Shown piece by piece: positions 7,444 through 51,282 of a stretch of DNA of 64,000 nucleotides. Source of the stretch: Macrocystis pyrifera (Eukaryota; Sar; Phaeophyceae; Laminariales; Laminariaceae); the NCBI GenBank assembly GCA_031763025.1, contig JASSKH010000044.1, positions 2,163,608 to 2,227,607 of the forward strand, read 5' to 3'. Every line of letters starts with the position of its first letter. Positions within the stretch are counted from its first letter, which is position 1. The notes below the pieces were generated by a model. That model saw only the letters and a program-made list of their open reading frames with translations. It was not told the origin of the DNA and made no database searches. Both the position numbers and the translations under genes were made by a program.

Positions 7444-10400
7444 CTAGCTTCCCCCTTTTTGTCGATCTATGGAGTCATTGACGTTTCTCAGAGTTTGTCT
7501 CGTCTGCGCCATCGCCGCCTTCAACAACACGTTGCACCGGAAGGGCGGGAGGGTTAATGTAATGAAAACGTATGAATAGGCATTGCTATGAACGGGCAAA
7601 AAAAAGGGGGGGGGGGGGGGGGGCAGCCTACTACTATGTTGCCTGCCATAGTCCTTCGACCATTGACCAAGCTCCACTTTCGAGACGGAGGGGGGGGGGG
7701 GGGGTGGGTGTAACGTACATATGAGGGGGGGGTCCACGATATAGCAAGTACAGCTCGCATGTGCGCTTTTTACCCTTGCGATCGACGCGGCGCGGCCTTC
7801 CGCCCTTACGTGCTGTTGCTCCGTCCCACGATAATGTAACGACAAAAACAAACTGCCCTGTTGCACGTTTTACTAGAAATCACCTTCGCGGCGCCAACAC
7901 GAGGACGCCCCCCCAACAAAACCTGCTTGATCAACCCAACCACGCAACCACCCACCACCCACCCATCCACGAACACCCTGTCGCACCCATCTAACGACAC
8001 CAACCCACCCCACTCGTCAACACGCCCACCTATCCACACACACCTACCAACCTTCCAACTACCCGCTCACACATCCGACACACCCACCCTAGCCGACCAA
8101 CACACCCACCCCCTCCACTCCCCCCATCCACACACACCCACCCTACTCCACCAACCCACCCACGAACCTGCTCGAAGGTGCAACGTAAATATACATGATG
8201 GATGATGTAGTAATAGGGAGCGGGGAGTCAACGACACAAAAAAAATACAGCTCGCGGGCGCGCTTGTTACCCTTGCGGTTGACGCGGCGCGGCCTTCCGC
8301 CCCTACGTACTTGGTACTCCGCCCCACGATAACGCAACAGCAACAACAAAACGTGCCCTGGCGCACCTTTTACCAGAACAACGCCTTCCCGGCGCCAACA
8401 CGGCGGCTGCCAAAGCGGGGACACTCCCCCCCAAACCCTGCGGCTGTAGATCAACCCACCCACGCAACCATCCAACCACCGACCCACCCATCCACACACC
8501 CCCCCAACCCCCCGACTATCCACACTCACCCACCCACCCACCTACAAGTACACCGGCCCAAATACCAAACTAACCCACCCACCGAGGCTCTCAACAACAC
8601 ACCCACCCCCCCACGCCCCCCATCCCCCCACATGCTACCCCAACCAACCTGCTCGACGGTCTTGCTAAGCTTTGCGATCTCGTCGTCCAGCCTTCTCAGG
8701 TCCTCCTTGGTGACCGCCCGAGGCCCCAGCCCCCCCCGCCCTCCCGACGCCCCCGAGCATCGCCCCGGACAAGGCCCAACCCCTACGACTCTCCGAGCAT
8801 AGCCGCTCCCGCCGCCGCCGCCCCCGCTCACGTCACTCCGGCTAACGCCACCCCCTAGACGCGCCCCGAGATCAAACGTTGTCCTAGGGGCCGATAGCCA
8901 GTCGTCCCCTCTCGAAAAAAGTCGGCTCTTCGAATCGTTCCCTTTCGAATATAGCCTACTCTTCTCGTCCTCTCTTGAAGAAAGTCTCCTCTTCCAGTCG
9001 TCTCCTCTCGAAAAAAGCCTACTCTTCGATGAAACCGGCACAGCCCCGCTAGCCCCACCTCTTGTGGCCGCAACCCCGACCCTTGCCTCCACCCTCCGAT
9101 CGCGATCGCGTAGGGGTGTGCTTCCAGGATCTCGGCGGTCCCGCCATCCTGAATGTGTCTTGCCGGCGGTGGAGGTAGCAGCGGCAACGACTGTTGTGGC
9201 CGGGGCCAGGACGGGGGGTGGAGCGAGCTCCGCAGAGAAGAGGCGCCTGTGGGCGGCGCCGGCAGGCGACAACGGCCCCGGAGCGTGCGAATCCCTCCTT
9301 TGTGAATCGAAACCCCACCCGCCACTCCCACCACCGCCGCCACCACCACTGCCACCATCAACACCACCACCGCAACCGTCGCCGCTGATACCCGCAGAGT
9401 AAATCGTTCGTGCCCCTCTCCCCCCCCTTCCTCCGCCTTCGCCGCCTCCCCCCCCGTATATCCGCCCATTCACATCTACCGCCGCCGTCGTTTCAGCGAC
9501 CGTGGCTCGAGGTACAGTCAACGGTGGCGTGGCGGCGGCAGCTGGTGGGACAGCAGGCGGGGGGGGCAAGGGGGGGGGGGACACGGTTGCCCCAGCCCCG
9601 CGATTTCGCTGGCGGACGACGTCGCCCAGCGCCGCGGTAAGCGCACGGGTGGCAGTCGTGTGCTGATTTCGCTGCTGGGGTAAAAGACAGAGGCGTTTGT
9701 TGAGTCAGGGGTGGGGGGGGGGTGGAAGTCGCTGCTGGGGAAAAGGCACGGGAGTTTATTACGACTGGGAGTGGTACTGGTGTTCTGATTTCGCTGCTCA
9801 GAACAAAAGTTTGTTAAGTCGGGGGGACTGGGGGTGAGGTAAACTGACAGCGGTGGGCTTTGGGGGTGCCGTCGTCTGCTGAATTCACTGCTGGGGAACA
9901 GAAAGTGACGTGTGGGCGGGGGGGGGTTTCTGACAGCGATGGGTTTGGGGCTGCCATCGTGCACTGATTTCAATGCTGGGGAAAAGTGGAGGGAAGGTAG
10001 AGATGCGCAAATGTCCTCTACGCAAGCACATGCGCCAGCAAGCACATACTTCGAAGGATGAGGCTCAAAAACACAAGAGCGCAAGACCCAACTCAACTCT
10101 CCCAAAATAAAAAGAGAGGCCTCTATTTTTTTCTTACTGTTGACATAGGCTCGCCGCGGAAGCCGGGCCAGGTACCCAGCGATTCACCGTCCAATGTCCG
10201 TGGCGCAATCAAGGGGAACAGCGCGGCCCGGCTCCACGACGGGCGCATGGCACGGGCCGTCGTGGAGCCGGGTCACGCTGTCACCTTGCCTTCACCAGAC
10301 ACATTGGACGGTGAATCGCTGGAAGCATGACCCGTTCACGGCGGCAAACCTATATAAACACGAAAAGCGCATAACGTATATACAATGTTGTATGGCGGTA

Positions 10401-13369
10401 CATACTGGGCTTCGACAAAACACACACGCACACAAGAACCACAAACGAAAAAAAACGACCGATTTTATTTTTTTGCATACTAAATAAACACAATCGTGAT
10501 TTCAAACGCAACGACTACACACGAGTTTACTATAGTGAAAAAAAAATAGAAGAGAAAAAAGAGAGACAACATAGAAAAGTGAAGGGTCGTGCCCCCCGTT
10601 CCCCGAGGACGTACAACAAAAAAAACTTACCGCGGCCGCCTCATCTCTCTCACGCTTCGCCCCCTTGAGCATCACTTCCAGCCTTCGGCGATGGTCGTCG
10701 GCGGCCGCTACTTTAGCCGTCAAGCCCTCTACCTCTTGCTCTAGCCCGCGGCAGCGCAGCTCTTCCTGCGTAAGAAAACACCAAAAAACAACAAAAACAA
10801 AGAAAGGCGCACACGTCGGCACGGGCGGGGGGGCGCGCGAGAGAGTAGAGAGACGTCGGACAGGCGTGGCGCTGAAGGCACGACGCCGAAGGCACGCGAG
10901 GCCCAAGCAGCAACGCCGGCAGGGGAGGCCAAAAATTCGCCACCAGAGCCTCCTATCCTACCGAGTCCACCATTATAGCAACCCTACAACACCGCTTCCA
11001 CCATCACCAGCGCTGCCGCCGACATCACCACCAGCAGCAAAAACTATCAATACAAACAGCAACGCCAACGCCACCACCACTACAACCACGGCCACCACAA
11101 CTACGGTCACCACCAACACTATCAACACCACCAGCACCACAACAACCACCGCCACCACAGCTACGAACACCACACGTCGCCACCATCACCACCGCCACCA
11201 ACCACCGCCGCTACCGCCACCACCACCACGACCACCCCCCCCCCCCCACACTCTCACCTGCTCCGCCCTCTCCCCCGCAGATCTCGACGCCTCCCTCTCT
11301 CCTCGCAGCCTCTCCCTGGCCGCCTTGAGCTGAGCGGTCAGCTTCGTCACCGCCAGCCGATACGCCCACTCCGTCGAAAAACCCACCCCCGCCGCCCCCT
11401 TCTTCTCCTCGTGATCCAAAAATTCTTCTAGGCTACCGCCGCTGCCACCGCTACCACCGCCACCGCTGCCAATGTCAGCGCCACTGCCACCACCACCACC
11501 ACCACCACCACAACCACCACCGTCTTTGGCGCCCAAGAAAGCGTAAGCCCCCCGGTTTCCCGCTTGCCCCGCATCGTCCGTAACTTCGTAAAAACTTGGC
11601 GCGCCTTTGTTAACCCGCTCCTCCCCCTCCTTATAGACATCGTCATCTTCACGGTCGTGGTCTAAAAAAACGGTGCCCCCTGCGGTGGACGCTCCCTCGT
11701 CTCGTCGTCGTCCTCGACGTCGCCATCGCCCCTCCCCGCGCGTCTCTCTGCTACCGCTGCCGCCACCGCCGCCACTGCCACTAGCCGGGAAAACCCCTCC
11801 TGCTCCTGCTCCTGTCCCCTCTCCGGCTACCGCCCTTCCTCGTGCTCCTCGTCCTAGCCCTCCCCCCTCCCCTTCGCCTCTACGGCCAAGACGATTTTCT
11901 CCATTCCCTTCACCGCCATCATTTGCCACTCTTGAAACCTCCGCCCCCGCCCCCGCCCCTGCCGCCGTGATTGGCGGGGAGGCGGAGGGAGAGGAGCGGG
12001 AAGAAGGGGCGCCGCCGGGGTGTGAATAGCGCCGGGGGGGCAGCTTCGCCTCAGCGTCTTGTCTAGCGAGGCATTCGAAGAGCTGGTCTATGAGCTGGAA
12101 GGCCGTAAAGGAAGGGGCCGAGTGTTGGCCGCGCTGAATGTGCCTGCAGAGGGACTCCAGAAGCGCTCGGAAGCACTTTTTTTTTTGTGTGTTTGTGTTT
12201 TTTTTTGTGATTTTTTAGTGCGTTTTTGTATGTTTTCGTTTTTTTTTTTTGGAGGGGGGTTGCAATTCGGTTTCAGTTTTGGTTTTTCGTTTGTTTTGAA
12301 TTTTTTTTTTTTTCATTTTTTTATTGTTTAGTGCATGTGGTTATATCGTCATTCGTTTGAGACGGCAGCGGCGCGCACGCGGGCAGGGGCCAGTGGGAAG
12401 AAGAGGCACGACGAAGGCGAGGACGGGGTTAGGATAGGTTACGCTTTGGTCTCGGCTGCTTTGCATTCCAGTTGGCCTTGAGATACGATATCAAAACAAA
12501 ACATCAAGACGAAAACGACAATATAGGAAGAACTCGATGAAACGCGGTCATCCTAGCACAACGATTTTACTCGAAGGGGGAACAGCTGTGTCCAGCTACT
12601 ATAGCTACTTCTAATGATATTGCTGATGCTACGACTACTGTTACACTGCTGTTTATACTGCAACGCTCAAGTGTCAGTACTGCTACAACTACTGCTTCTA
12701 CTGCAGCTGCGGCTGCTACTACCGCTACTACTTCTACTGCTGCTGCTACGTCCACCACTACACTACTGCCACTACCGTTAAAACTGCTACTGAAACTGGC
12801 TCTACTGCTGCTATTTATACTACAACCACCACTACCACTACAGTACTACAACTACTGACACCACACCTTCTACTCGCACCACTATTGCTATTATTTATAC
12901 TACTACCCGTACAAGAGTACACACCAGGCTCAACACAGCAAAACAACCCCCCCACACACACACCTTAGTCGTCGCGCGCCACCTCTGGCACCGCGCTCTC
13001 TGCCCTTCCTCTAGCTCCCGAAGTGCCGACCGCAGCGTCGACAGGGATTGCCGCGACTTAATCTCGGTCTGCTGCGCCCCAACCGTCGCGGCTTTTAGAT
13101 CTCGTCGCAGACGCAAGGTGTCACCCTCAAGCTCGCGTACTCGAAGCTGCCGATGAGGAGATGGGGTCCGGGTGGAGGGAATGTAGATATGTTGTGGATA
13201 GTTTCTATTGCTGTAGGACTGCGAGATATCTGATAGTTGACTACCGGTACTTGGTACCTGATATCACATAGGTCGCCGGCTATTACTGAACTACTGTAGT
13301 TGGCTGGGGATTGCAGCTAGGTGCGCAACAAAAACGAGGCATATTCATACCGGGGGGGGGGGGGGGGGT

Positions 13370-13422
<53 letters not shown>

Positions 13423-16400
13423 CGTACTCATTTGTTGCTTGCCTCAGTCCTTTGACCATTGACCACGCATCCCTTTCGAGACGGAGCACCGTTCCTACTC
13501 CTGATAGAGACACCTCCAACAATTGGGCGCTCAATACGTTGTTTCCATATATTACATAGAAACTTTTTGCTAATCTTATCCCCTTCCTGTTTGGCCTCCT
13601 ATGGCCACCATCTATCTCCTAGGATAGCGATCGTTTTCTCGCCACTATTCATTGTATCAAACTCCTCCATGTCACATTCGTGTATTTTCCTCATCTCCTC
13701 TTCCAACACATCCCGTTCCTCCTTGTATATTTCACATTCTCCTACTATGTGAGCTCTACTCTCTATTGCTTTGCCACACGGGCACATCCGTGCTTCTACT
13801 TCCTCCTCCTCCCGGCTACTGGTGTACCTCTTTCTTCTTTCTGGCAGGTCCAGGTCTCCTACACGAAAGCGCAGTTTCAGCGTTTTCGCGAAGTCCATTG
13901 GGCCATGCAAATACGTTTTCATTCCTATTCCTTCCCTCAATCCCCCGTATATCTCCAAGTGTTTTTCCGATTCCACCTTGTTTCTTAGCGCTAGCCTTTC
14001 CCTTCTTTCTATCATTTCTTCTACTTCTGCCTTGTACCTCCCAAACTTCCCGGCGGACATAATCTCTTCTTGGTTTCCCCCTAAGTCCTTCCATACTTTC
14101 TCAACTACGCCATCCCACCTTGTTCCAGTTCGCCCTTTTGTTACTTTCTCCCATACAGCTCTATCAACTATGGCTGGCAACCTCGTTTTTGGCATGTTCC
14201 TTACTTTATATTGCCAGTTCAACTTTCTCATGCCTCTATTTGTCTTGAGTGGGCGCATTCCCAGTTCTGCTCTAAATACTGTATTACTAGTCGTACTTGA
14301 GCATCTCAGGAGTTTTTTAGCTGCTGTCACTTGTACTGTTTCCAACTGTTTAACGAGTTTCGCGTTCCCTTCCCATACTTCTCCTGCATATTCTAGCTTT
14401 GGTACTATCACATTCATCAAGATACATATCTTAATCCTAGTGTCAAGGCTATGGTCTGATAGGATCGCATCCATCTTGCCTACTTGTGCCTTACCTTTTC
14501 CTATTACTTTTGCTATATGTGTATCCCAAGAGCAGTCTTTTGAGATCTCTACGCCAAGGTATGTATACTGGTCTACGATCGGCAATTCATCTTCTCCCCA
14601 CTTCCAACTGAAATTTACCGGGTTTACCTTATCTTCGTTGCAAACAACTACTGCGCATTTCTTGACGTTCGCCGTCACCCTCCATTTCCTGGTGTATTCT
14701 AGCGCCTTCTCTATTTGTTTCTGCAATCCTTCGGGTGGGGGGCTTAAAAGCCATAGTGTACATACACATGTATCTCAGTGTAATTCCAACTAATCTGTCC
14801 CCAACGGCAGTTCTAAACGAGGTTAAGGGGCGTCACCGAGCGTAGAAACAATCGTGCGAGTTGAGCTGGATAAGTACAACGTGATGACCAGAAACGTGAA
14901 AATGGAAGATCGATCGAAGGAAGCGATATAAAATCGTGCTATATAGGGCTATATAGGAGGCGTGATTCGGTTAGGGGATAGGGGGTATATGTTGGATAGA
15001 GCTACGTGGCATGGTTGGGATTGAACGCAGGAGATAAAATCAAGGGTTATTAAAGAAATGATACCCTCTTCAATATATACCAGGTATATTACTAGAGCTG
15101 TACAAATAGGTTAGGGTTAGGTGTGCATCTATTTGAAGCTGTGCAGTACGCTGGTGTATCGCTTTTTTGCGCACCTCGCTTTGGGAGAGCTCGCGCGCGG
15201 TGCGTTCCGCTTTCTCCGCTCCCTTCCGAGCCGCCCTCAGCGCGTCGCGCAGCAGCTGTCCGGCACCCTCTTGAAGTCTGCCTCGTCGTGTCGTATATAT
15301 CATACGCATGTTTCATGTATGGAGACATGTTCGAGTACAAGCACAGCAGTCGGTTAGTTCAGAGCTGAAACTACGCGAGATACTCCCGTTTTTCGTTGAA
15401 CAACAGCAACGGCTGAACTGCAGTACATGCGATGCGATACAGCATTGCCTTGACCAACGAGCGCTGAAGACATATGGCGCCTTCTGCTTTCTGTGGCGGA
15501 TTTGCTCTATGCCTCGAAGTGGCGCAGGACAACCGAGGTGTACACCGTTTTACAGAAAATGCACCTGAAAAAACGTCGGTTACTCATATGATATTGAACG
15601 TATGTATAGTACGAGCGTATTTAAGAAAATAGACACAAAGGAGTGCACCCCCAAAACTTATTGACGTAAAGGGTGACACTGCCTTTCGCTGACGGCGAGG
15701 TGGTCGAGATACAGGTGGTCGTCAACATCAATCCTACAGCCCAGCACGAAGTGTGTGCTTTCATGTCGCTGTTGTGCACATATTCGCCACCACTCCCTCC
15801 GACCAGCCAACATCACCTGGTATGTACGCACCAGGTACGTACGTGGTACGGGTGACGATATCTGCGCACCGTGTGCGTGCGAGGGTGCGCTTACTCCAAG
15901 AAGGGCCATCCCTAATAAGAGCCTTGCCATAATAATATGTAGCCAGTAAAGAATGTTCTGGACAAGACGAAGCTGCAGCGGTATTTGAGCCACACATGAC
16001 CTGCCCGGTCTAATCGTGGCACAATAGTACATTCATACAGCAGTATGTACCAAGTATTAGCCATCAGTAGTACGTATGTATTTGGTACCGGTACCTGGGG
16101 TGCAGTACGTACGTCGTCACGTAATTAAAGCATTTCAAACCGCATGGTGTGTGGTACGATATGTGGTATGGTGATGTGCCGATCACGTCTAAGCGGGTTT
16201 GGGGCGTTGGTCTGTTCGAGGTGAGACGTTGTCTATTCGGCCTGCCACAACAACCACGAGCGAGAACCGTGGCCCGGCGGCGGTCTTTCGTAGCCAGTCC
16301 GGGGCACATCCATACGCAAGGAGACAAAAAGGGGTAAAGGTAAAGTCACCAAAACGAGGACATCCCAAACTGACTACTGTGAGGATTTTTCCTATGAGAT

Positions 16401-17480
16401 TCAATTTCGAGCTTCAGATGCCAGGTATGTACTTTTCGATCCCAAAATGAAAGAATCTGCCTAGGCAGTCCGAATATGCAAAATCTGACCGGAAAAAAAT
16501 GATTCGAGAATCCGATGACCCAAGTCGCCAGATTTTGGCCCGAAACCCGACGACTTGGCCCATCAGATTTTCAAACCGAAAACTGGCATGGTCTCTAATT
16601 CAACATGTTATCCAGTTTCCAGTAAAACACTGGATGTTTGGAAAGGCCATGGGAGTTCGTCGAACGCTGGAGATTTTTCGTTTAGAGCATGTTGAAGTAC
16701 CCGTCGACGAAGAGCACTACTCTGTCCCTTTTTTTATCAATTTTTGGGGCAGTGTACCCTTTTTTGTCATTTAAAAAAAAAAAAGTAAACCCCAAACCCT
16801 GTAGAAACGTTATGTAGCCAATCCCCATTTTCCATACTTTATCCGAGATGTTAATTTAGTACAGTTCAAAATCGCTGCCTCTACGTACGAGTTACTCTTC
16901 CCGAAGCTATTTTTTGAAAAAAAAAAAACATGGCACCAGGTACCAGGTCACGACACATGGATGCTTGCAACACGGCGTGCTTCAGAGCAAGGTGCTAGGA
17001 GCGCCTAAGGGTGTCACAAAAGCAACGCATCCTTGAACTGGGCCATTGCCTTCTCCTGACAGTCAGGCCATGGCCCTTCATATTCGAAACAACAAGCACT
17101 CGGCATTCGGAGTCTCGGCATCGCATCTCGCACCATGATCCGCCAAAACAACAACGCGAAGGCTTGCTCCAGAAACAGAATGGTGCCCTTGGACTCTCTC
17201 ACCGGGAAGCTTTCGCCTGGGCCGCCAAGGTCCTAGCTCGTGAGGCCCGAAGGGCAGCAGCGAGGGCTGGCAAGGCCAGTGCCCCTGAGGGAACGTCGCC
17301 ATCGCCACCGGCGCCAACGCTGCTGTAGACACCACCAGCGTCGCCTGCTAAGGCCCGACCAGAAGAAGTTGGCGCAAGGGTTGTCCAACAACGCCCGCTT
17401 GAGTCATCGCTGCTTGAATCGGAAGAGTAGTCCGCCGAGCTGAAGAGCCTCGTGCCGGCCGACCACGGACGCCTCGGCAT
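7444..17480 (-). CDS. Coiled-coil protein of unknown family, seven coding exons
   Basis: Minus-strand exons, in transcript order: 17480-17203, 15277-15175, 13146-12964, 12175-11258, 10765-10631, 9674-8649 and 7518-7444 (stop TAG). Lengths sum to 2718 nt (905 aa). Junctions are phase 2, then 0 throughout. Good splice sites include acceptor TTTTCTTACGCAG with donor GTAAGT around exon 5. Residues 1-70 are Ser/Asp-rich. About 70-215 is heptad-like (LLRDALRAARKGAEKAERTA, LRLRRDLKAA, LRSALRELEEGQRAR). Exon 4 starts with a helical block (FRALLESLCRHIQRG) followed by a Gly/Pro/Ser-rich linker, then more coiled coil through exon 5. Exon 6 is low complexity with a repeated SRLFSRGDDW peptide. The end is coiled coil again (EDLRRLDDEIAKLSKTVEQ). 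I recognise no domain; a structural or cytoskeletal role is only a guess. Exon 4's acceptor is A-rich and less certain. The start ATG (17480-17478) follows an AG, so a 5' intron is possible. Confidence 0.78.
7606..7705 (+). repeat. Second poly-G-associated repeat (family Q), short copy
   Basis: Between two G runs (about 7606-7623 and 7691-7704) lies TTGCCTGCCATAGTCCTTCG, ACCATTGACCA and TTTCGAGACGGAG. It matches 13423-13565, 34868-35015 and, inverted, 30407-30475. Confidence 0.65.
7760..8440 (+). repeat. Two diverged direct copies of a ~200-bp repeat with CCACC minisatellite between
   Basis: Copies at about 7755-7960 and 8250-8440 share GACGCGGCGCGGCCTTCCGC, CCCACGATAA, GGCGCCAACACG and other blocks. 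Each is followed by CCCACCCACCCA-type minisatellite (7930-8160, 8445-8600). All lie in the last intron of the minus-strand coiled-coil gene. Confidence 0.7.
8900..9035 (-). repeat. In-frame minisatellite in exon 6 of the coiled-coil gene
   Basis: About four units of 33-36 bp, each containing TCTCGAAAAAAG- and CTACTCTTC-like blocks. Translated on the minus strand they give SRLFSRGDDW, RRLSSREDEK, SRLYSKGNDS and SRLFSRGDDW. The unit length keeps the reading frame. Confidence 0.8.
9660..9990 (-). repeat. Minisatellite containing repeated splice-acceptor sequence
   Basis: Five imperfect units, each with plus-strand CTGATTTCGCTGCTGGGGAA, near 9664, 9729, 9787, 9880 and 9965. On the minus strand this reads TTCCCCAGCAGCGAAATCAG. 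The copy nearest the coding region supplies the acceptor of exon 6 (exon starts 9674). Confidence 0.7.
10176..10322. repeat. Perfect-ended palindromic element (hairpin MITE-like)
   Basis: The left end CCAGCGATTCACCGTCCAAT is the reverse complement of the right end ATTGGACGGTGAATCGCTGG. An inner arm GGCCCGGCTCCACGAC is mirrored by GTCGTGGAGCCGGGTC. No ORF. It sits in intron 5 of the coiled-coil gene. Confidence 0.85.
13352..13422 (+). repeat. ~70-bp poly-G tract
   Basis: An almost pure G run, interrupted once by T near 13369, immediately followed by a family Q repeat. It is in an intron of the coiled-coil gene. Length may be limited or distorted by sequencing. Confidence 0.95.
13423..13565 (+). 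repeat. Family Q repeat, long copy
   Basis: Starts directly after the poly-G tract: TTGTTGCTTGCCTCAGTCC, TTTGACCATTGACCACGCA, CCCTTTCGAGACGGAGCACC, then CATATATTACATAGAA. It aligns block by block with 34868-35015. Confidence 0.75.
13599..14726 (-). pseudogene. 5'-truncated non-LTR retrotransposon (LINE): RT end and C-terminal zinc-finger region
   Basis: A 375-codon open frame on the minus strand. It begins just after where the YxDD motif should be: LQKQIEKALEYTRKWRVTAN and KCAVVVC, then YTYLGVEISKDCSWDTHI (RT thumb region), MNVIVPKLEYAGEVW, and near the end a zinc finger CPCGKAIESRAHIVGECEIY. It ends at a natural-looking stop. No endonuclease or catalytic RT motifs lie upstream; the sequence changes character at 14727 onward. 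Such 5' truncation is typical of LINE insertions. The frame is unbroken, so the insertion is probably fairly recent. It lies inside an intron of the coiled-coil gene on the same strand. Confidence 0.85.
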
Positions 17481-17926
17481 TTCCTGTGCGAGGATACAGC
17501 AGTGCACGAACGTGTCACGGCCTCTCGCATACGCCTTGCATTGGGCTGCTAGCTTCTTAGTGCAGGCTGCAGCAATGCAAAGCAGTGCTACGCGTAAAAA
17601 AAACGTGTGCGCGAGAAAGAAAACAACGGCAGAAGAAAAATGCGGCGGAACTCTGACCGATTCTTACAGCAGTGAAACCGTCCAAAGCAGAAAACAACGA
17701 AAGACGAGAGGGCTATTCGCCACGAACCTGTATAATGGCTACTAGGTACCACGGTATCGGATATCGGTTTGGATTTGGGATTAGGATATCTTGGATCTTC
17801 ATCATGATCGCGTGATCGGTACGGGATCGTGTGCCCGTCGACTCTTCGACGTTTGTCACGGGCCACGAGGTCCACCTTCGACCAGGTGCACCCGTGTTAC
17901 CGTCGCGTTCAGTGGGCGAAGAAGGT
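17481..17926. promoter_or_regulatory. Divergent intergenic region between two unknown genes
   Basis: 446 bp separate the two proposed ATG codons (minus-strand gene at 17480, plus-strand gene at 17927). Any shared promoter must lie here unless 5' untranslated exons interleave. Both ATGs sit just inside an acceptor-like AG (17484-17485 on minus, 17911-17912 on plus), so 5' UTR introns are possible. I see no clear TATA box. Confidence 0.4.
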
Positions 17927-26900: not shown

Positions 26901-29900
26901 CTCCGATAAATATGAGTGGGCTAGGTGTACCACGACTAATACTAAAATTTAGACGGCATGGGTGGATTTCTTAATTAATTTAATATTTACTTGAGTGCAT
27001 GTGGATGAAATCTCTCTCCCCCTGGAGCTTGGTGCAAGCAATGTCTGCCTGGTCGGTGAAAACCCGACATGCTCCGTCCCGGCATTGTAGGGATGCAAGG
27101 GTCTATGGTCATACGACTACGGCCATGCATGAGATTGAGTACATCTCTCCTATCGAGTACACCCCCCCCCTCCAGGCCCCCCATACCTAGTATATATAGG
27201 TTGAGGATGCGTCCGGTGGAGACGACGCTGTAAAACACGCCTCACTGCGTGAGCTAGACAACCAGGGTACCGTTTTTTTTATCGGGGGGGGGGCAGTCAC
27301 CACGGCTGGCGGTCGAGTTAAATCATTTTTGTGCGCGGAGAACCTAGACTCCGCACAAGGGGGATGATCGTATCACGTACAGTAGTGTGTACTTGGTAAG
27401 GCACCCACGAGGCAATTACCTACCGTAGTATTCCCATTGCTGTCTTTGGAAGCGGCCACACCAGAAAATAAATCAACTCATGGCGTTGACATCCATATGC
27501 AAGAAATCCGCCTCACAACTGGTTCTTAGTAAGATACAGCTCACCGTCCATGCGACTCGCCGAACTCCTCACGGCGCTTCGCGCTTTTTGCAAGCAATGT
27601 CTGCCTGATCGGTGAAAAGCCGACGTGCTCCGTCCGGGCATTGTAGGGATGCGAGGGTCTATGGCCATTACCATGCATGATAATGATGATTGTACACCCC
27701 CCCAGGCCATGCATGACATCGAGTGCACCCTCCCCCCCCTTCCGGTCGGTGAAAACACGACGTGCTCCGTCCCGGCATTGTACCGGCATTGTAGGGATGT
27801 TAAGGTCTATGGTCATACGACCACGGCCATGCTCGACAAGAGTGTATACCTCCCTCCCCCCCCCCCCCCCTCGTCATCAAAGAGGGACTGCCATAAAATC
27901 ATGCGTGTATTTGTGTCATTGTTGTGCTTGCCATCCGACGGCAAAAGGCGTGGTATGATACTTGAGCTGTAGATAGTGTAAAGCTATTCATTTTGTTTTG
28001 TAGGAGACGACGCATCTTTTTACTTTCGAGGCCCGGCACATGATAAATGGTAAGTTACTGGCGGTATTCCAAGGGTGTTGAGTGTATACGTAGTTCCTCG
28101 GTCTATTCAGTCGAAGAGACCCGGCACTCAGAAGCATTTTGAACAAAAAAAGGGACAATAGTACCCCTATCGTAGCACGCGTCTGTGCCTTATTTTTGGA
28201 AACTAAAACTGAGGACAGAAGCAAGGGTAACACAGCTGTCATCCTTCACTGACAGACGCTGTTTCAGTAAGTAGGCCCTCTTTCTCGAGCGTCCACCGCA
28301 ATAACCGAATGTGCTGTCGCTGTGGCTGTGGCTGTCATTGCTACTCCTCATTCCACGGTATGGACAGATAGATAAGCCGGAAGCCTTCCCTCATGAAACC
28401 TGGTAGCATGAACTAATGCTGCTGAACCACGAGCATTTATAGCTGTTGCGACTGCTGCTGCTGCTGTTGCTGCTACTACTACTGCTGCTACTGCTGCTGC
28501 TTGCAAAGGTACACGAGGGCCGTGGTAACCGTCCAGCGTCTCGTCAGAGGATTCCGGGACCGCGGTCGGGTTTCGAGAAGACGCCACGCCCGCGTGACCC
28601 TTAGGGACGCCTGCCTCGAGGTTGGGATGGACATCATGGAAGATTGTATCCGCCAGGTATGTGTTTTGCAAGGTGTCATTGATCTACCCACGAGTGAGAC
28701 GTTAGCGATCCGCTGAAGGCGAGAAAGAGGCCGTGAGAGCTCACGCTGCCTGATCACCACAGTTTGGTACTTTTTTGGGTGTTCACTCTTTAGGGTAGCA
28801 GTATATGGCAGGGATGGGGGGGGGTTCGGGGGCGGGGAGGTGGAAGGGGGGGAGTATACCCGACTTCAGGCGGTTCTGGGAGATCGACATGAAAAACACT
28901 ACCAGTATCAGACAACGCCAACACCACCAACACCAATAACAACTCCAACTCCAACACCAACACCACAACCATCACCACTACCACTACCACCCCCAGCAAC
29001 AAATCGGCATCCTTGCCCCTTCGCTCTCTTGCACCCTCCTTTACCCGCATTAACCCACAATCTCAAGGTCATGGCCCCTGGTGTGATCGCCAGTGTCTTG
29101 GCCGAGGGAGTGGAAGGCGTTATAGCGCCGAGCAGGAGGGCGGGAGCACCCATCGCCGCGCAGGCTCTCATGGAGGAGGTTGGTGCAGTCGTCGTTTTGC
29201 TAAAGGACAGGCTACTTCTATGCCGTCTCCTGATTAAACCATTGTATGTAATTCTCTCACCTCTGTTGTACATCACTCTGGACTAAAATATAAGGATTGT
29301 ATATACACTACTATGAAAACCAATTGGTCCTTATATTTGTGTCCAGAGTGCGACGAGAGTGCACACAAAAAGAAAAGGTTACCCGACAGTCCTACAAAGG
29401 TCAGAGCGATGAACAAAACCAGCGGGTATATAGTACCAGGTAGCTTCATATATTGGTGAACAGCGTTTGCACTTCTTCATGCTTCACATTTCGGGTGGGC
29501 AAATGTGATAAGCAAAAAAGCAGCAGGTCGAAATCATGCGGGATGTGGGTACAGCAACGAAAGGAGAAAGAGGTGGTACAATGGGGTTCCTTTCTCTTAG
29601 TTTCCACAGCCTGTCTTCTTCGTTTCTGCGCCTGTGTGCCTGCTGCAAGGCAAGGTATGTCCGACGCCAATGCCAGCGTATAGCCGTATTTTCGTTTGTT
29701 TCGTGAACAAAAAGCCGAGCCAAGGTTTTTTAAAACTCCCAAATTGTTAACCCCATTAGGACTGCACTCCACTTTGGGGGCCAACTGACGTGGAATTAAA
29801 GTCAAAAGTCTGTGTACAGTAAAAGGGGTAAGGGCCGTCCAGCACTCTATAGCAGCGGCCGAAGGAAGCAGCCCGGGCTGTTGCGGGTTTGTAAAAAGTG

Positions 29901-30144
29901 CCCGACCTGAACGCCAACGGAAATGAGCTGCACGACAAACGCGCAGCTAGATGATACTGGTCTTGCCCTGCTGCGCGTTGACACTAAAACTAGACGGCTG
30001 ATAGGACCGGCCTCGTCATCGTTGTGGCCGCTATGACTTTGGGCCCCAAAAGTGTTAGCAGAGGAACGGACCAACAGACGAAGACACGAGTCTATGATGG
30101 GTTTTTATGTTCGGCAACTTGACAGCCAGGTCGCCGAAATGCGG

Positions 30145-30185
<41 letters not shown>

Positions 30186-33100
30186 CCCCTGTTCTACACC
30201 CTTCCTAAAATTCTTCCAATACTGCGTGCAATCGGGGTACTTCTTCAACCCACCCCACCGCCCATCCCCCCCCCCCCACCACACCGTCCCCCACCCCCGC
30301 CCCACCCCGCCTCACTCCCCCGCCCTCACCCCCCTCCCCACTTCCGACTCCTCCTCACCCACCCACGCCCACCACCCTTCTTCACCCCCCCCCACTCCCT
30401 ATAAGCGGTGCTCCATCTCGAAAAGGATGCGTGGTCAATGGTCAAATGACTAAGGCAAACAACAAATAAGTACGTCCCTACCCTCTATATTACATATAGG
30501 TTGGGTTGGCGTTTGTTCGCAACGACACTGCATAACATGCCGCTCACTACGTGAGCTGGACGACCAGGGTACTTTTTTTTTTGGCGGTCGGTGACACATG
30601 GTGGTCGAGTTAGATCATTTGTGCCGGGTGGAGAACCTTCACTGCGCACAAGGGATATTATCTCATCATGTAGTCTTTATAGTGAGACAGCCACGAAGCA
30701 TTTACATAGTACCCCTATTGCTGTCTCTGGAAGTGGCCACACCGGAAGATCAATCAACTCATTGAAGCTGTCGCCCATGTGCAAGACCGCCTCACCGCCT
30801 CACAAGCGGTTTTTAGCAGGATGCAGCTCACTCTTCATGAGACTCGCCAAACACCTCACGGCGCTTCGCGCTTCGTGCAAGCAACATCTGCCTGGTCGGT
30901 GAAAACCCGATGTGCTCCGTCCCGGCATCGTAGGGATGCCAGGGTCTATGATCGTACGACTATACAGCCATGCATGATATCGAGTACCCCCATCCCCACC
31001 CACCCCCACCTCCACCCCCCCACGCCTACGCCCCCCCCCCCCTCTCCCGAACCCCGCCCAACCCCCCACCCTTATGTGACAGACCATTGCGTCGATGGTC
31101 GCCGAGACTGCGAAGCTTGCCGTTCGGGAGGAAACTAACAGGTAAGCAAATGGCATCCGCACAAGACACGTGTTTGACTCGTACATGGCGAAAGGAGACT
31201 ACGTAGAGGTATGGCATAAGCATGGACGCGAGAGAAACAAAAAGGGCACTCATCAAACGGCGCGTGGTTTGGCTCTTGCACATTTCATCTAGGGGGGACA
31301 CAAGCAGGTACGGTAGGCATGTGGAGGCGAGCAATAACGCTAGTGCTCATCAAAATCCGCGTGTTTGGCTTGGTACAAATCATGTGTATATTGAAAAATA
31401 CATACGATCAGTTTTTCTAAAAACTAATTACCTAGTTTTGTCGGTATTCTTTGCACACACGTAGGACATTGTCTTCTCGACTAAACCAGGTATATTGCAA
31501 CTTTCTCGAGTAAAACACGCAATGTTCCCAAACATACCAGACGAATCGAAATTCTCTCGAATATACCAGGTAAGATATGATTTTCTCGAATGTACCAAGT
31601 AAGACACGACAAGCTCGAATATGTCAATTGGAGCTACTCACTCGAGTAAAATATGCATTATACTAGGAAGCGACGCAATTTTCTCGAATAACATATTCAG
31701 TTCGCTCGAATATGCCAACACAAAACGCGATTTTCTCGAACATTCCTCAAACCCAATAAGCCCGCACATTTTCGCGGCTGGCAAATATCCGGTCTCCCAT
31801 CCTCTCGTGACCAAGGGGAAACTTTGGGACAGACCCAGCTCTCGCAAAGTCATTCCCCGGGTGCCTCGCCCATCCCTAACTACAGCACAGTAGATGGCTA
31901 ACTGGACGTTACCTTACTGCTCCCCCGGTTTTCTCTCCCTCTCTTCTCCTCCCCCCCCCTCCCCCCTAATTCCTCCTTCTACCCCCCTCTCCGCTACCCC
32001 CCTCTGCGTTCCCCTTCCTCACTCCCTCCCCCTCCCTCCCCTCCTCAACCCTTTACTCCGTCCGTCCCTCACCTGTCTATCCCCCCTCTCCTCTTCCGTC
32101 CGCCTACTTACACACCTGGTATACTATATTCTCCTATGCTACCCTACGCCCGAGACTAGCCACCTGGACGTAATTTTTGTGAGAGATCGAAGGAACCCTC
32201 TCCTTGCTTTGGTGGACGATATCGTCTCCGACACGCTCAGGGTCTGCATGAAGGAGGTGAGGACTCAAAACAAAAAAACATTGTGGGCACAGAAAGTCTG
32301 CGTATCCATCTGATGGTGGTGGCGGCGGCGGCGGCGGCGGTGATGGTCGTGGTGGTGATGGCGGTAGTCGTAGCGACAGTGGTCGTGATGGTGGTGGTGT
32401 CGTTGTTGATGGTGGTGGCGGCGGCGGTGGTGATGGGGGTGCCTGTCTGCAAGGTCAATCGCAAGTCATAATCTCAACCAACACGCCTCACTATATCTTG
32501 AAAAAAAAACACGAATTAGTTTCGGTTCGGCTCCGGATCTCTATTGATCTTATTTTTCATCTGGTGGTGGCGGTGGTGGTGGTGGTGGCGGCCGTGGTTG
32601 TTTTTAGTTTTTGGCCCTAGCTGCTGTGAACGCCATAAACCGACAGCGAACACCAAAACGAAAACGCAGGGGGTGGTGGAGGCCGTGAGAGAGTGCACGG
32701 AAGACTTCATGTTCGGGCGACGCCTATTCGCGCTGGTAGAGGAGCTGATCGAGGAGGAGGTGGTCGGGTCGGCGGTGCCTATCGCGCACGGGGTATACTA
32801 CAGCTCCTCGGTAAGAGTTGGAGAAAAAACAAAATTGTGCGCATAGACTACAAGTAGGACGGTAGTGAAAATGGGTGCGAATTATGACGATGAAGCTCGC
32901 CAGGAGCCGCCATTGCCTACTGTAACATACGTAGCGAATTCGTTGCGTACAAAAACTGTTCAGATTTTTGTAGACCACTCTAAAACCCACACACTCCGTA
33001 CTACAGCATGCGCGATCAAGGTGTCGCACTACGCTTGACACTATGAGTTGTTGCCTGAAAGTTTCGATCTCGCAGCTGAGTTTTGTTTTTTCTCCTTCTT

Positions 33101-36100
33101 TCAATCCTGCGACACCCGGCGCCCGTTTGGCACATGCCACTATATTTACCAAAGCCTACGTTACACCACCATTTTTTTAATTAATCCATGCTATTTCAAG
33201 ACATTAATTTATTTTCATCCACGAGGCATACGATATACAGAAGAATATTGTGAAGGGCGGGTACGACTTAGGGATTGGTTGATAACTAACGATTGTAGGA
33301 ATTAGAGGACGAGAATTGTTAGAGTCTCTTATTTTTATTTGGTATTATTAGTGCGAAAGATCATGCGATAAAAACGACGGTTAAAATGTTTTTTTGCAAC
33401 CGTCACCTAAAACACCGCTTTTAGGTTGACTCGCTGTGATAAGACGGCTTCCTTGAGTTTCGCCAACCGTCATATAAAACGTCGTTTTCTTATTGTTTGG
33501 CTTTGGCTCGATACGCTTGGCCTGGGGCAATCAGCAACAAAAACCTTCGCTGACAGGCTACACCTACATAAGTACGATGGTTACATAAGTACGATGGTTA
33601 CCTTGAATCCCACCAACTGCCATCTGTAACACCTTCTTCTGTTTGATTCACTGTAATCAAAACGACGCTTACATTGGGTTCCGTCAACCGCCATCTGAAA
33701 CACCGCGTTTTAGTTTTTTCACTCGCTGTACTTGGCCTGGAGCAATCAACCATCAACCTCTTCGATGACAGGATACAAAAACGGCGGTCACATTGACTTT
33801 CGCCAACCGTCTCCTGTAAAAGCCATTTTTTTATTCTGTCGCTGTGCTTAACCTCGGGTAATCAGCCAACAATGGATCTATTTCGCTGACAGGCCCTTGC
33901 CACCTTTTGGGAGCTGGAGCAGGAGGTTTGCGCAGAGGAGGCGGTGTCGGTGGTGGCTGAAACCATGGCCCCTTTTGAGGACCACCTGGTGCATCTGCAG
34001 AGAAGGAAGGACGTGGCGGCAATACAGGCGCGTCGAACATTATTTTTACTGGCGGGACGGGATGGGATGAGATAGGATGGTATAGGAGGGGCTGCGAATT
34101 GGATGGAGTGGAATGGAGTGGGTTGGGGTGGGACGGAACGGGGTGGGATGAGATAATATCGTATGGTGTGGGATGGGATTGGATAGGATAATATGGGATG
34201 GGATGGGATGGAATATCCGACAACTGGGGATAATGCGTTGGATTTGAATATGCTTTGCACCTTTTCGGATGGTAAAAGAAATGCGATGTTTTCCCTTGCG
34301 TAGAGGGATACGGTAGGAGGGACACTGCACTCCAAGTAAAGAGGGCTCTCGATTCACTAAATATCGGGCTGAAGCAGCGCTGAATCTTTTCAGACAAACA
34401 AACGAAAGCAACAATGCTACAATCCTTGTTTGTTTTCCCTGGGGTTTCTTCTTCACTCTGTGCCCGTTTGCGGGTGATTGGCCTCAAAGCGTGTGCTGGA
34501 CATGGTCAGATGGCCAAACGAAATAACAACTCATACCTGGTACTTCGTACAAGAGCTACTGACTTAACTGTTACTGGTCTCGATACCACACATTTTTGTT
34601 TTCTGTGTGGCAGTCTGCGGCGCAGAGCGTGGTCGTGAAGGGTCTACAGCTTCAACACGCCGCGCGAACTTTGGGACAGAGGGGCAGGCTGGTCATCATG
34701 AGCGACATCAACGGGAAAACGCTTAATCTCCTCTTGGCAGGAAGGTGAGTGACCTCTCACCGCCTAGGTTAAACTCTAACCTCTTAGTGTAGCAGGGTGG
34801 TTTGCGCTACTGCTACTACTGCTGCTGCGGGAGAGGGGGGCGGGGGTGAGGGGGAAGAGGGAGGGCGCACGCATTAGTTGCTGTTGCTTGCCTTAGTCAT
34901 CTGGTCATTGACAACGCAACCCTTTCGAGACGAAGCACCGTTCCTACTTCTAATAGACACCCCCAACAGTCGGGCGCTCTTTAGGATGCTTTCATATATT
35001 ACGTAGAAGCGTTTATCCTCCGTGCGTGATTGTTTCAATTTCTCCGTGCAATAGTTGTCAATGAGTGGACGGCGCTGTAGTTTATTCTTGTACCTTTGTC
35101 GGATGGCAAACGCGACAAAACATGTCATACCAGCACGTGGCGGTATTTGCCGCCCCCCCCTCCTCCCTGACTTCCACAGCTTCATACTTTGTTCCCCAAT
35201 GCGATAAACAAGGGATATACATCCTGCATGAGGTCAGATACAACCCATAGTTCACGCGATCGAAGAGCTACACACAACTTGCAAGCATGAGTTTCGATGA
35301 AATCCTCGATCTCATCGCAGCTGTCGTTTTGGTTTCAACAATTTGTAAGTATAAACCCGGTAACTAAATCTCTTCTCTTGTTTTTTTGTTTTGTTCCTTT
35401 CCCAAACGCCTGTCAGGTTTCTGGCCATTCTGCGAGCCGCCGAGACCAACCGCGTGCGAGTCGCCGCGAGCCCCCTGCTCTCCTTGCTCTTCCGAAGGCT
35501 AGTGGTCAGGTGACTACAAATTTGGCCGTCGAGCAGCGCCAACGATATGCGTTGCCGTGCCGTTCCCTAGGTGTTTGTATTTAAGGTTGTATGGGCGAGT
35601 GAGGCACATGATGACTGGAGCAAGCGCCACACACCGTCAAATGGCACACGGGAAAATGGTAATGATTCTGGAATTGGACAGCCACGCACCTTAAGACGTT
35701 TTCGTCGCTGAAGCTCCCAGGTAAAGCTAGGGGATTGAAAATTCAGTAGAAGACCGGTAGGGCCCACCGAAACACCCTGATCGTACCCCTCACCAAAATC
35801 GAGAGTGGGCCGCAGCAAAACATCGAGGCTCGGTCGCTGCCAGCAAACAATTTTTGTCGAATGCTGTAAAAAAAACTACACCCTCGCACAGCAGTGTTCA
35901 AGAAGTACTCTGCTGGATGTACTCTTAGTGCTGCAAGTATTCCGGACGTTGAAACCGCGGGTCGAACTGCTTGTACTCGGAGTTTAGGACTGCTCGTACT
36001 CCCAGTACCTCGCAGCATTTGGACCTTCAGTACTGCCGCAGCCGTATCCGCATATCACGGCATCCCTTGGCACGCAGCCTCAGCCGCACCACAGAATAAT

Positions 36101-36397
36101 CTGACCCCCCGTCCTCACACCCCTGCGGGCGTTGCGTTACCCCCCCCCCCCCCCCCCGACCGCATGTTCCTACATTACCCATCTGAAACAAAATCACAAA
36201 AAAACAATAGGACCGGACGTAGCGTCCTCCTCGACGAGCTTTCGAGAGAGTTAGACCGTGACGAGACCGCACTTCACGAGCTCGAGCTAGAGCGCATAGA
36301 CGAGGTCGACCGGCAGCGAAGGGCCGTGCGCGACCGTGCTGCGGAGGGCATCATCTCTTCCTCGTCCTCTTCTTCCTCATTCGTCGCCAAGTCATGA
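17927..36397 (+). CDS. IQ-motif protein with Ser/Arg-rich N-terminus, fourteen coding exons, family unknown
   Basis: Exons: 17927-18029, 19726-20413, 24387-24666, 25492-25589, 25831-25859, 28004-28049, 28509-28656, 29068-29178, 32155-32256, 32670-32810, 33893-34027, 34614-34744, 35417-35509 and 36211-36397 (TGA). All phases agree and the sum is 2292 nt (763 aa). Residues 1-34 are acidic (VVEGEDDSTVMADN). Exons 2-3 are Ser-rich, then Arg/His/Gly-rich (RS-like; HDYRRSRGIDTDHGRHKHHR). Exon 4 ends DDDDEKVEIVFG. Exon 7 has an IQ motif VQRLVRGFRDR, matching [IVL]QxxxRGxxx[RK], which usually binds calmodulin or a relative. Exons 8-14 are mostly helical, ending with acidic helices (LLDELSRELDRDETALHELE) and a poly-Ser tail. 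The end of exon 11 is uncertain: it needs a GC donor at 34028 or a weak GT at 34013. Upstream coding exons cannot be excluded. Cytoskeletal or ciliary use is possible but unproven. Confidence 0.76.
18753..18858. mobile_element. Short inverted-repeat MITE (family M), copy 1
   Basis: Ends ACGGGGGTCCATAGTTAATA and ACTATGGTCCCCCGTAAT are inverted repeats. The centre has TTTTACTAACAATATTTGGTC. About 105 bp, no ORF. It lies in intron 1 of the IQ gene. Further copies at 54082, 57137, 58656, 58844 and 63030. Confidence 0.88.
22090..23090 (+). repeat. GGGTCGGGTC satellite-like array
   Basis: Blocks of (GGGTC)n alternate with a spacer like AAGTTTTCAAATCTCACG, period about 45-60 bp, in two stretches (22130-22380, 22800-23010) separated by unrelated DNA. 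The outer ends are inverted (GGTCATGACCCGACCCGCGG near 22110; GACCCGACCCGACCCGAGCC near 23040), suggesting an element with inverted termini. It lies in intron 2 of the IQ gene. Confidence 0.85.
23460..23900 (+). repeat. GATCTG-rich dispersed repeat, copy 3, with TGTATGATC decamer array
   Basis: Matches 590-830 in block order (GGGCAGATAGAT, GGCTGGATCTGTACTGTAG, AGATCCTGTAC, GATGATCTATCTGTAGA). Inside, 23565-23700 is a tandem array of the 10-mer TGTATGATCT with drift. Confidence 0.7.
24770..25090 (+). repeat. Degenerate tandem array around GACGCCAACGGTAAAATC
   Basis: Loosely repeated modules of about 40-50 bp (GACGCCAACCG, GGTAAAATCG, GGCGGT, TTT). It lies in intron 3 of the IQ gene. A similar GGTAAAAC module recurs at the 3' end of the copia element (44680-44885). 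Confidence 0.55.
25940..26515 (-). repeat. Family P repeat, near full-length copy
   Basis: The longest clear copy, about 570 bp, between poly-C runs at about 25950 and 26500. The proximal part has GGCAACGACACTGTAAAACA, CACTACGTGAGCTAGACA, GGGTACCG plus poly-T, and GTCGAGTTAGATCATTTGTG. The distal part has CAGCTCACCCTTCATGCGAC, CACGGCGCTTCGCGCTTGGT, GGTCGGTGAAAACCCGACAT and CATGCATGAGATCGAGTAC. No ORF of note. It is inside the long intron between exons 5 and 6 of the IQ gene. Confidence 0.85.
26766..26846. mobile_element. Short TIR element (family T): TAGTACCGCAGTCCCG...CGGGACTGCGGTACTA
   Basis: 81 bp with inverted ends TTTAGTACCGCAGTCCCG and CGGGACTGCGGTACTAAA and an inner TGGGGACAAAC / GTTTGTCCCC-type arm. 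Related sequence at 41164-41387 and a half copy at 58770-58812. Confidence 0.85.
27003..27175 (-). repeat. Family P repeat, truncated copy
   Basis: Begins inside the element (CTTGGTGCAAGCAATGTCTG) and runs to the poly-C end at about 27160-27170. Immediately followed by a second, longer copy. Confidence 0.8.
27183..27870 (-). repeat. Family P repeat, long copy with duplicated distal end
   Basis: Starts GAGACGACGCTGTAAAACAC and proceeds through GTCGAGTTAAATCATTTTTG. The distal ends CATGCATG and GGTCGGTGAAAACACGACGT are duplicated, with a second partial distal unit at 27740-27830. It ends in poly-C at about 27860-27870. Confidence 0.75.
29274..29350. mobile_element. 77-bp inverted-repeat element
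   Basis: Left CACTCTGGACTAAAATATAA and right TTATATTTGTGTCCAGAGTG are inverted repeats with one or two mismatches. Too short to code; MITE-like. In the intron after exon 8 of the IQ gene. Confidence 0.8.
30146..30184 (+). repeat. Poly-C tract (~38 bp)
   Basis: A pure C run in the IQ gene intron, followed by C-rich DNA to about 30405. Confidence 0.95.
30407..30475 (-). repeat. Family Q repeat, inverted copy
   Basis: Contains CGGTGCTCCATCTCGAAAAG, GATGCGTGGTCAATGGTCAA and ATGACTAAGGCAAACAAC, the reverse complement of the block at 13423-13500. It directly follows a C-rich stretch. Confidence 0.7.
30490..31035 (-). repeat. Family P repeat, near full-length copy
   Basis: Same order as 25940-26515: CGCAACGACACTGCATAACA, CTACGTGAGCTGGACGACCA, GTCGAGTTAGATCATTTGTG, CTCACGGCGCTTCGCGCTTC and GGTCGGTGAAAACCCGATGT, ending in C-rich DNA from about 30990. 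Confidence 0.85.
31470..31745 (+). repeat. Tandem array of CTCGAATATACCAGGTAA-like units
   Basis: Roughly nine degenerate units of about 25-35 bp sharing TTTCTCGAATATACCAG. It lies in the IQ gene intron before exon 9. Confidence 0.75.
33380..33890 (+). repeat. Degenerate ~130-bp tandem repeats ending at a coding exon
   Basis: Modules such as CAACCGTCACCTAAAACACC, CGCTGTGATAA, TTGGCCTGGGGCAATCAGC and TTCGCTGACAGG recur about three to four times. The last CGCTGACAG is the splice acceptor used for exon 11 (33893) of the IQ gene, and the motif occurs earlier in the array as GCTGACAGG (33550) and GATGACAGG (33765). Confidence 0.7.
34060..34215 (+). repeat. GGATG/GGAT pentamer minisatellite
   Basis: GGGATGGGATGAGATAGGAT-type units with drift, immediately after exon 11 of the IQ gene. 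Confidence 0.85.
34868..35015 (+). repeat. Family Q repeat, long copy
   Basis: GTTGCTTGCCTTAGTCATCT, GGTCATTGACAACGCAACCC, TTTCGAGACGAAGCACCGTT and CATATATTACGTAGAAGCG. Preceded by a G-rich stretch (34828-34865). Confidence 0.75.
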
Positions 36398-43000: not shown

Positions 43001-43229
43001 CAAACGCTATACATTATCCACTACAGATAAGAGCCTTGTGCAGACAAGAGCGCCTGTTTTGGCGGGGCGCGCTCTTGACTCGGGGCACCCGCTGTACTGT
43101 ACTAACCTTCTTCCATGTTTTTCCGCTGCAGGGCCTCACTCCTATCCGAGCTCACGAAGACCACGTCGGCCTGGCCAGGCTTGAAGCCCTTGTAGGCCTC
43201 CATCAGGGAAGGCAAAAAAAGGACGCAGT
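40085..43229 (-). CDS. Nucleoredoxin/thioredoxin-like protein, three C-terminal exons (N-terminal part not found)
   Basis: Thioredoxin-fold oxidoreductases of the nucleoredoxin/tryparedoxin type reduce protein disulfides. Minus-strand exons 43229-43107, 42135-42075 and 40274-40085 (stop TAA) join with agreeing phases (1, then 2). The product reads LPSLMEAYKGFKPGQADVVF, VSSDRSEALQRKNMEE, then HHPDWPAVSFEGDFRADLKR, then GGVPTLVVFRSSDGALLTMD and GVSDV. This is the order of the nucleoredoxin fold after the WCxxC site (SSD strand, xxWxAVPF helix, cis-Pro VPTLV, NGR/DGxxDV turn). The C-terminus is Ala-rich. The exon with WCPPC is not in the 670 bp before the copia element, nor recognised beyond it. 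The first exon reads CVLFLPSL where the family usually has CRGFTPxL, so its border is uncertain. Either the catalytic exon lies past the retrotransposon or the gene is truncated. Confidence 0.75.
41164..41387. mobile_element. Family T inverted-repeat element, expanded copy
   Basis: Outer ends CTTTTAGGACTGCAGTCC and GGGACTGCGGTCCTAAAAG are inverted repeats. Inside are four modules GTTTGTCCCCA(A/G)AACG with GGAATTTGAGTG spacers. It lies in an intron of the nucleoredoxin-like gene. Confidence 0.8.
41455..41615. repeat. Inverted GGGTC / GACCC element
   Basis: GGTCAGGTCGGGTTGGGTCG on the left is mirrored by ACCCGACCCAACCCGACCCG on the right about 60 bp apart. Related to the array at 22090-23090. 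Confidence 0.75.
42582..42893. mobile_element. 312-bp TIR element with internal minisatellite
   Basis: Perfect 17-bp terminal inverted repeats TATTCGACACTATGGTT and AACCATAGTGTCGAATA. Internally, GTCAACAATGGTTGGGGATA-like units repeat about six times (42655-42830). No ORF. Flanked by TA-containing sequence, so a TA target site is possible but not shown. Confidence 0.85.
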
Positions 43230-43900
43230 CTGCGTGGCAAAAGCGGCAGCATGGAAGTAACCGGCGAGTGAACGTGACGGACAAAAAAACAATCAAATTA
43301 ACGTCAGTCCGTGATACCAAAAAATCAGGTAAAACAGTGATTCCGAAGGTGGGATACAGCACCATACAGGATGCCTACATACGAGAAGTAATACTAATGA
43401 AACGAGCACTACTTACTAAGAAAGGAAGACAGGCTCAAATTTTACAGGGAAATAATAAATGCCGACGGGATTATCTTGAATTTATCTTGAAGTTAGTGTA
43501 GCACACTACCCTTTCCGGCGCGTAAGACACCCAGGCTGGGCGAGCAGTCTACTCCCGTTTCGTAGCATGGGCAGGTGTCATGTACTGTATGAGGCATCGT
43601 AACGCCTCTTGGAACCAAAGGGCGGGTGGTTTCCTTCTGGAAAGGCGTGGAGCATCACGTGCGCCCGTAACACAGACTCGCGCACTCCGGGTCAATTCCT
43701 TGGATGGCGTTTTTGGGGATGTAATATGACATGCTTCAGCTTTGGATACACCTTTGGGGGAAAGTTGTTTACAGCAGTGCGCAGTCTTTTCGCTGATGCG
43801 TCGTCTTTTTGCTGTGTGCATACGAACTTCTGCTCGTATCGTGCGTACCAATCTGTCCGGGAATGAAAGAACCTTTTTGGTACTAATATTATACCAAACG

Positions 43901-46565: not shown

Positions 46566-46583
46566 GTGAAGGTCACTCGCGTG

Positions 46584-49279: not shown

Positions 49280-49324
<45 letters not shown>

Positions 49325-51237: not shown

Positions 51238-51282
51238 AGCCCTTTTGCACAGAAGCGTGGACGACTCGTACCAACGCTAGCG

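Follow-up and report, generated by a model that had tools for sequence, protein, structure and literature searches.

A head-to-head pair of apparently single-copy genes without an assigned family in the giant kelp Macrocystis pyrifera

In a 64,000-nucleotide (nt) stretch of the genome of the giant kelp Macrocystis pyrifera (assembly GCA_031763025.1, contig JASSKH010000044.1, forward-strand positions 2,163,608 to 2,227,607; hereafter the window), two large genes lie head to head between positions 7444 and 36397. We refer to them by strand as the plus gene and the minus gene. We judge it slightly better than an even bet (probability about 0.55) that the pair consists of unrelated nuclear genes, each apparently single-copy and without an assigned family, in the divergent arrangement that is usual in brown algae. 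An earlier annotation made from the DNA letters (the sequence-only reading) had described the pair and offered the pairing as a hint of a shared process. The present analysis supplies two giant kelp gene models without an assigned family and corrects that inference: head-to-head placement is common in brown algae and is not to be taken as a sign of shared function.

Both genes were rebuilt by hand using splice signals and phase. This gives 824 codons in 16 exons (17927-36397) for the plus gene and 898 codons in 7 exons (17480-7444) for the minus gene, and each ends in an in-phase stop codon. The start codons, ATG 17927 on the plus strand and ATG 17480 on the minus strand, leave 446 base pairs (bp) between them (17481-17926), which matches the separation of about 450 bp described before. 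The earlier lengths of 763 (plus) and 905 (minus) codons are near to ours, but not the same. Exon 3 of the plus gene (126 nt) is phase-neutral, as are exons 6 and 7 jointly (29 + 46 nt), and without these optional exons the plus protein has 757, 782 or 799 amino acids. All 21 introns of the two genes have an AG acceptor and 20 of the 21 a GT donor, the sole other donor being a GC (CAG/GCGCGT) after plus exon 13, where a GT located 15 nt further upstream offers an alternative that leaves the phase unchanged. The earlier claim that both frames close in phase thus holds for the rebuilt models, with the proviso that the splice sites were picked with phase in view, so that phase by itself is weaker evidence than its appearance suggests.

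Codon usage was scored with a model trained on the exons of two recognisable neighbours, a HECT ligase and an MRE11-like gene (352 codons). Segments of 30 codons were compared at the 5% level with a null of 2771 stop-free segments of the rest of the 64-kilobase (kb) window. From codon 466 of the plus gene onward, 20 of 22 segments pass, and segments in 1-45, 271-315 and 406-450 pass as well; within the arginine/serine-rich (R/S-rich) part only those in 166-210 do. A synonymous-codon score based on the same training set is positive for exons 8, 9 and 11-16, each of which scores better in frame than in the other two frames; it is 0.9 for exon 3, and the total for the gene is the best among the three frames. 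A simple exon-chaining predictor was run alongside controls consisting of 20 dinucleotide shuffles in 1-kb blocks, the reversed sequence and the antisense or opposite strand. On the plus strand it returned one 12-exon chain with a score of 50.5, compared with 6.5 on average and 14.0 at most for the 20 shuffles; the reversed sequence reached 19.7 and the antisense strand of 18-37 kb reached 9.9.

Exon by exon, support for the plus gene is uneven. Exon 1 (17927-18029) has phase and codon segments in its favour, and its donor is that of the predictor, whose exon begins at 17913 and follows another at 16394-16424. Exon 2 (19726-20413), an R/S-rich low-complexity frame of 229 open codons in phase, has little codon-usage support, and exon 4 (24387-24666), basic and of low complexity, is in phase with no such support. 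Exon 3 (21802-21927), optional in that its length is divisible by three, is coding-like with a weak donor (GGC/GTGAAA). Exon 5 (25489-25589) has phase and codon segments behind it, and the predictor gives it as 25492-25589. Micro-exon 6 (25831-25859) and exon 7 (28004-28049; no codon-usage support) are uncertain and jointly optional; the splice sites of both look strong. Further downstream, phase and the synonymous-codon score agree for exon 8 (28509-28656), which encodes an IQ motif and finds a match in the kelp's own genome at its own locus only, and for the helical exons 9 (29068-29178), 11 (32160-32256) and 12 (32670-32810, where codon segments concur); the helical exon 10 (31083-31141) is in phase and draws no support from that score. 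Phase and the score agree again for exon 13 (33893-34027), with its GC donor or the alternative GT, and for exons 14 (34614-34744) and 15 (35417-35509), where the predictor picks both ends. Exon 16 (36211-36397), which encodes a charged helix, a serine run and the stop codon, has the score in its favour and lies outside the predictor chain.

Several observations weigh against this model of the plus gene. Exons 1, 2, 4-7 and 10 have synonymous-codon scores below zero, and by this score exons 2, 4, 6, 7 and 10 lack codon support. Only 10 of the 24 exon ends in the predictor chain agree with the hand model; the chain runs from 16394 to 38432, adds extra exons and misses 8 of the hand-model exons. 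Its start at 16394 falls within minus intron 1, so that the clean gap between the two genes would vanish. Taken together, the reality of the plus gene is well supported, and questions remain at both ends and in the R/S-rich part. Its introns hold repeats of several kinds: copies of a dispersed repeat family (61-88% identical) at 25975-27700 and 30494-30967, and, in intron 3, two arrays of CGGGT-rich units of 40 to 50 bp at 22127-22375 and 22808-22995. By eye, the same dispersed family recurs outside 7-37 kb, near 1030-1230, 56750-56930, 60800-61060 and 61880-62110.

The minus protein consists of a few helical islands on glycine/serine/proline linkers, and in the codon comparison the islands are coding-like and the linkers mostly are not. 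Segments pass at about 91-150, 181-240, 421-540 and 841-885, and single linker segments at 361-390, 661-690 and 766-795. Exon 1 (17203-17480) begins with the start codon, ends in the donor CCG/GTGAGA and has an open frame that continues in phase into exon 2. Coiled-coil sequence is encoded by exon 2 (15175-15277; phase and codon segments, donor end shared with a minor predictor chain), exon 3 (12964-13146; phase, codon segments marginal) and exon 5 (10631-10765; phase and codon segments, both ends picked by the predictor). In exon 4 (11258-12154), whose donor is also the predictor's choice, helical coding-like ends enclose a long Gly/Ser-rich linker that is mostly not coding-like, and exon 6 (8649-9674) runs from a Pro/Gly/Ser-rich linker into a helical carboxy-terminal island and is coding-like mainly at its 3' end. 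Exon 7 (7444-7518), with the stop codon, is the least certain.

We consider it possible, though clearly less probable than the arrangement of two complete genes, that the drawn model of the minus gene does not correspond to a single gene. The coiled-coil core (about 13.1-10.6 kb) would then be real and the exons near 17.4 and 7.5 kb chance frames, and the spacing would not be 446 bp. Consistent with this, no segment of exon 1 passes the 5% level and its synonymous-codon score gives it no support either, exon 7 is likewise weak, and support is weak in other parts. Under both models the synonymous-codon total of the minus gene falls below zero and below the totals of the other two frames, a comparison to be read with the caveat that those two frames hold many stops. 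The predictor found only a 4-exon chain on this strand, with 3 ends in common with the hand model; its score of 31.0 exceeds the maximum of the 20 shuffles (18.3) and the opposite strand (1.3), and is itself exceeded by the reversed sequence (52.5), which implies that low complexity confounds the predictor test there. Two introns measure 1.9 and 2.0 kb, one of them with a retrotransposon-like frame, the last intron contains a locally duplicated 69-nt stretch (direct repeat 7746-7814 and 8243-8311, 87% identical, 497 bp apart), and the predictor's plus chain begins upstream, within intron 1. On the other side, all 6 junctions of the minus gene keep phase and use GT-AG sites, a result tempered by the fact that phase guided the choice of sites, and the segment 856-885, which spans the junction of exons 6 and 7, is coding-like. 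For the minus gene we regard the core as probably real and exons 1 and 7 as uncertain. The frame in intron 2 (13602-14774, minus strand, 391 codons, same orientation as the gene) resembles by eye the end of a reverse transcriptase from a retrotransposon of the type without long terminal repeats, and had no Pfam match; in intron 5, an imperfect inverted repeat at 10138-10360 has 80-nt arms that are 73% complementary, with 63 nt between them.

Copy number was assessed in the kelp's own genome (537,376,219 bases, 223 contigs). The published assembly of the species is described as 537 Mb long and made up of 35 scaffolds and 188 contigs, with 223 in Table 1 of that article (PMC10498591). The queries were the second half of the plus protein and the islands of the minus protein; the amino-terminal half of the former and the linkers of the latter were left out. 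The plus query gave 9 matches, all 9 of them the gene's own exons, and the minus query gave 11, of which 9 are its own exons and the others have expectation values (E) of 0.27 and 0.77. Below E 0.27 the searched parts match their own exons only, and no multiple copies were found. Both genes are therefore apparently single-copy as far as these parts go, and apparently not transposons, an origin that the sequence-only reading had named as one that would overturn it.

The recognisable genes of the window alternate in strand: HECT ligase (+), minus gene (-), plus gene (+), thioredoxin-like (-) and MRE11-like (+). A study of the brown alga Ectocarpus reports the same tendency of neighbouring genes toward opposite strands, with 61.7% of the genes flanking start-adjacent intergenic regions in divergent pairs and a median gap of 409 bp (PMC7784034). 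In that study, the starts of pairs below about 600 bp share a nucleosome-depleted region, and the transcript levels of the partners are uncorrelated (Pearson 0.042 overall, 0.054 below 600 bp; PMC7784034). The kelp pair resembles close divergent pairs of Ectocarpus in its opposite strands, its strand-alternating neighbours and its gap of less than 600 bp, the last conditional on minus exon 1 and on there being no upstream plus exon. Unlike the Ectocarpus pairs, which are described by chromatin, transcription start and expression data, it comes from a different brown alga and is known from sequence alone. By this analogy, the head-to-head pairing is ordinary for brown algae and says little on gene function; it predicts a shared promoter region, not a shared process. 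A promoter region common to both genes, as proposed earlier, is accordingly likely by comparison with the close Ectocarpus pairs if minus exon 1 is right, and the hint of a shared process finds no support in the transcript levels reported there. We hypothesize that one nucleosome-depleted region inside the 446-bp gap probably serves both genes, and that the two would be regulated independently in spite of it.

It is improbable, in our estimate, that the two genes form a functionally linked, co-regulated module that a shared bidirectional promoter holds together, such as a flagellar or centriolar pair under calmodulin regulation. The spacing, the IQ pattern of the plus protein and the helical coiled-coil signal of the minus protein would fit such a pair, and flagellated gametes and spores occur in brown algae. 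The absence of correlation between Ectocarpus partners even below 600 bp argues against it (PMC7784034). Two pieces, the carboxy-terminal half of the plus protein and the amino-terminal 234 residues of the minus protein, were also searched by sequence against solved structures. All matches were at chance level, with a best E of 0.47 among the 2 listed for plus and of 0.082 among the 4 listed for minus. None was a cytoskeletal or ciliary protein, the one exception being a kinetochore protein at E 7.8, again chance level. The calmodulin-regulated cytoskeletal or ciliary role suggested earlier therefore stays a guess, given these searches and an IQ match under the Pfam cut-off.

Codons 35-400 of the plus protein are 17% arginine, 16% serine and 10% hydrophobic, and rich in charge; codons 466-824 are 35% hydrophobic. 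The first half thus shares an R- and S-rich, low-hydrophobic composition with SR/RS-domain proteins, and in this sense the description of the protein as RS-rich stands. Unlike those proteins, it has no enrichment of RS/SR dipeptides (15, where shuffles average 19.6 and 1843 of 2000 contain at least 15), and no Pfam domain was found in the plus protein. Because the dipeptides are fewer than in shuffles, the R/S-rich amino-terminal tail is not an RS domain. The pattern [FILV]Qxxx[RK]Gxxx[RK] occurs once in the protein, at codons 466-476 (VQRLVRGFRDR), so that the protein shares one full IQxxxRGxxxR-type pattern with the calmodulin- or centrin-binding proteins of the IQ family (PF00612). It differs from them in that the motif is single, no further domain was found, and the exon piece that carries it scores 14.6 bits, below the Pfam cut-off of 20.3, which counts against the IQ assignment. 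Downstream of the motif, an amphipathic-helix signal is present in 481-824 (matched by 8 of 300 shuffles) and in 481-660 (3 of 300). Internal repeats in this helical half are suggestive only (best pair 36, equalled by 1 of 100 shuffles).

Searched whole, the plus protein matched no Pfam family, the IQ family not being listed, and the whole minus protein matched only a coiled-coil model under its cut-off; pieces searched singly drew, besides the IQ family, assorted families, all below their cut-offs. The earlier statement that no family was recognised for either protein beyond an IQ motif and a coiled coil is thus borne out at Pfam cut-offs. The coiled-coil stretch of the minus protein resembles the PUMA coiled-coil family (PF24627), at 21.5 bits with a cut-off of 30.1, and the same piece is matched by five other families at E up to 1. 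The amphipathic-helix signal of the minus protein is as strong in 1 of 300 shuffles for residues 76-240 and for 847-898. Residues 431-555 go against the picture of helical islands: their helical moment is not significant, being matched by 120 of 300 shuffles. For the second half of the plus protein, no relatives were found among viral contigs and bacterial and archaeal genomes, a null that is expected for a kelp gene and uninformative on other eukaryotes. A search of the kelp genome with the IQ family gave no matches, controls included, and is hence uninformative; Rfam gave no match at gathering scores. Brown algal genes without orthologues in the other species studied are known (PMC6374913).

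Should orthologues bear out the exon models, the plus protein would supply, in its helical half, a candidate for a new domain family. We picture this protein as disordered and R/S-rich over a long amino-terminal half, which leads through a single IQ motif into a carboxy-terminal half built of amphipathic helices. It would most likely act as a scaffold, its IQ helix held by calmodulin or centrin and its amphipathic helices binding partners, although such an EF-hand scaffold role, read from motif and composition, is tentative. The minus protein, with short coiled-coil islands on disordered Gly/Ser/Pro linkers, would most likely be a structural scaffold. A highly speculative reading makes the plus gene the founder of a new family of EF-hand-regulated scaffolds in brown algae, with an IQ helix, acidic amphipathic helices after it and a long R/S-rich tail, and gives it the coiled-coil minus product as partner in a cytoskeletal or nuclear assembly specific to kelp. 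Least probable of all is a diverged Sac3/GANP-like (TREX-2) scaffold that binds centrin through its helices, a resemblance of the plus protein that we presume from an IQ-like helix adjoining acidic amphipathic helices and not from an alignment; RS dipeptides are not enriched, and this reading was dropped when neither the whole protein nor its pieces matched SAC3 or CID in Pfam at E up to 1.

Elsewhere in the window, the 3' end of the HECT ubiquitin ligase gene, with at least 4 exons, occupies 1-3952 on the plus strand (Pfam HECT 1.2e-49, joined pieces). Exons of the gene that we tentatively call MRE11-like lie at 57877-62845 (+; Pfam Metallophos 8.3e-05, joined pieces), and near 60330-60400 there is by eye a similar copy of part of one of them. 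Thioredoxin- or nucleoredoxin-like exons at 42070-43220 (-) match Thioredoxin_8 with 20.1 bits, under the 27-bit cut-off, when two pieces are joined. Upstream of them lies a Copia-type retrotransposon (about 43880-51800, minus strand; RVT_2, rve, Pol_BBD). The repeats that flank it, at about 43.9-44.4 and 51.3-51.8 kb, are near-identical by eye, and the insertion is therefore probably young. Ten further open frames in the window had no Pfam match. An element of about 110 bp, whose ends read like inverted repeats (TATTACGGGGGTCCATAGTTAA...), was seen by eye at 18760-18860, 54080-54195, 57140-57250, 58665-58770 and 58850-58965, and looks like a family of miniature transposons.

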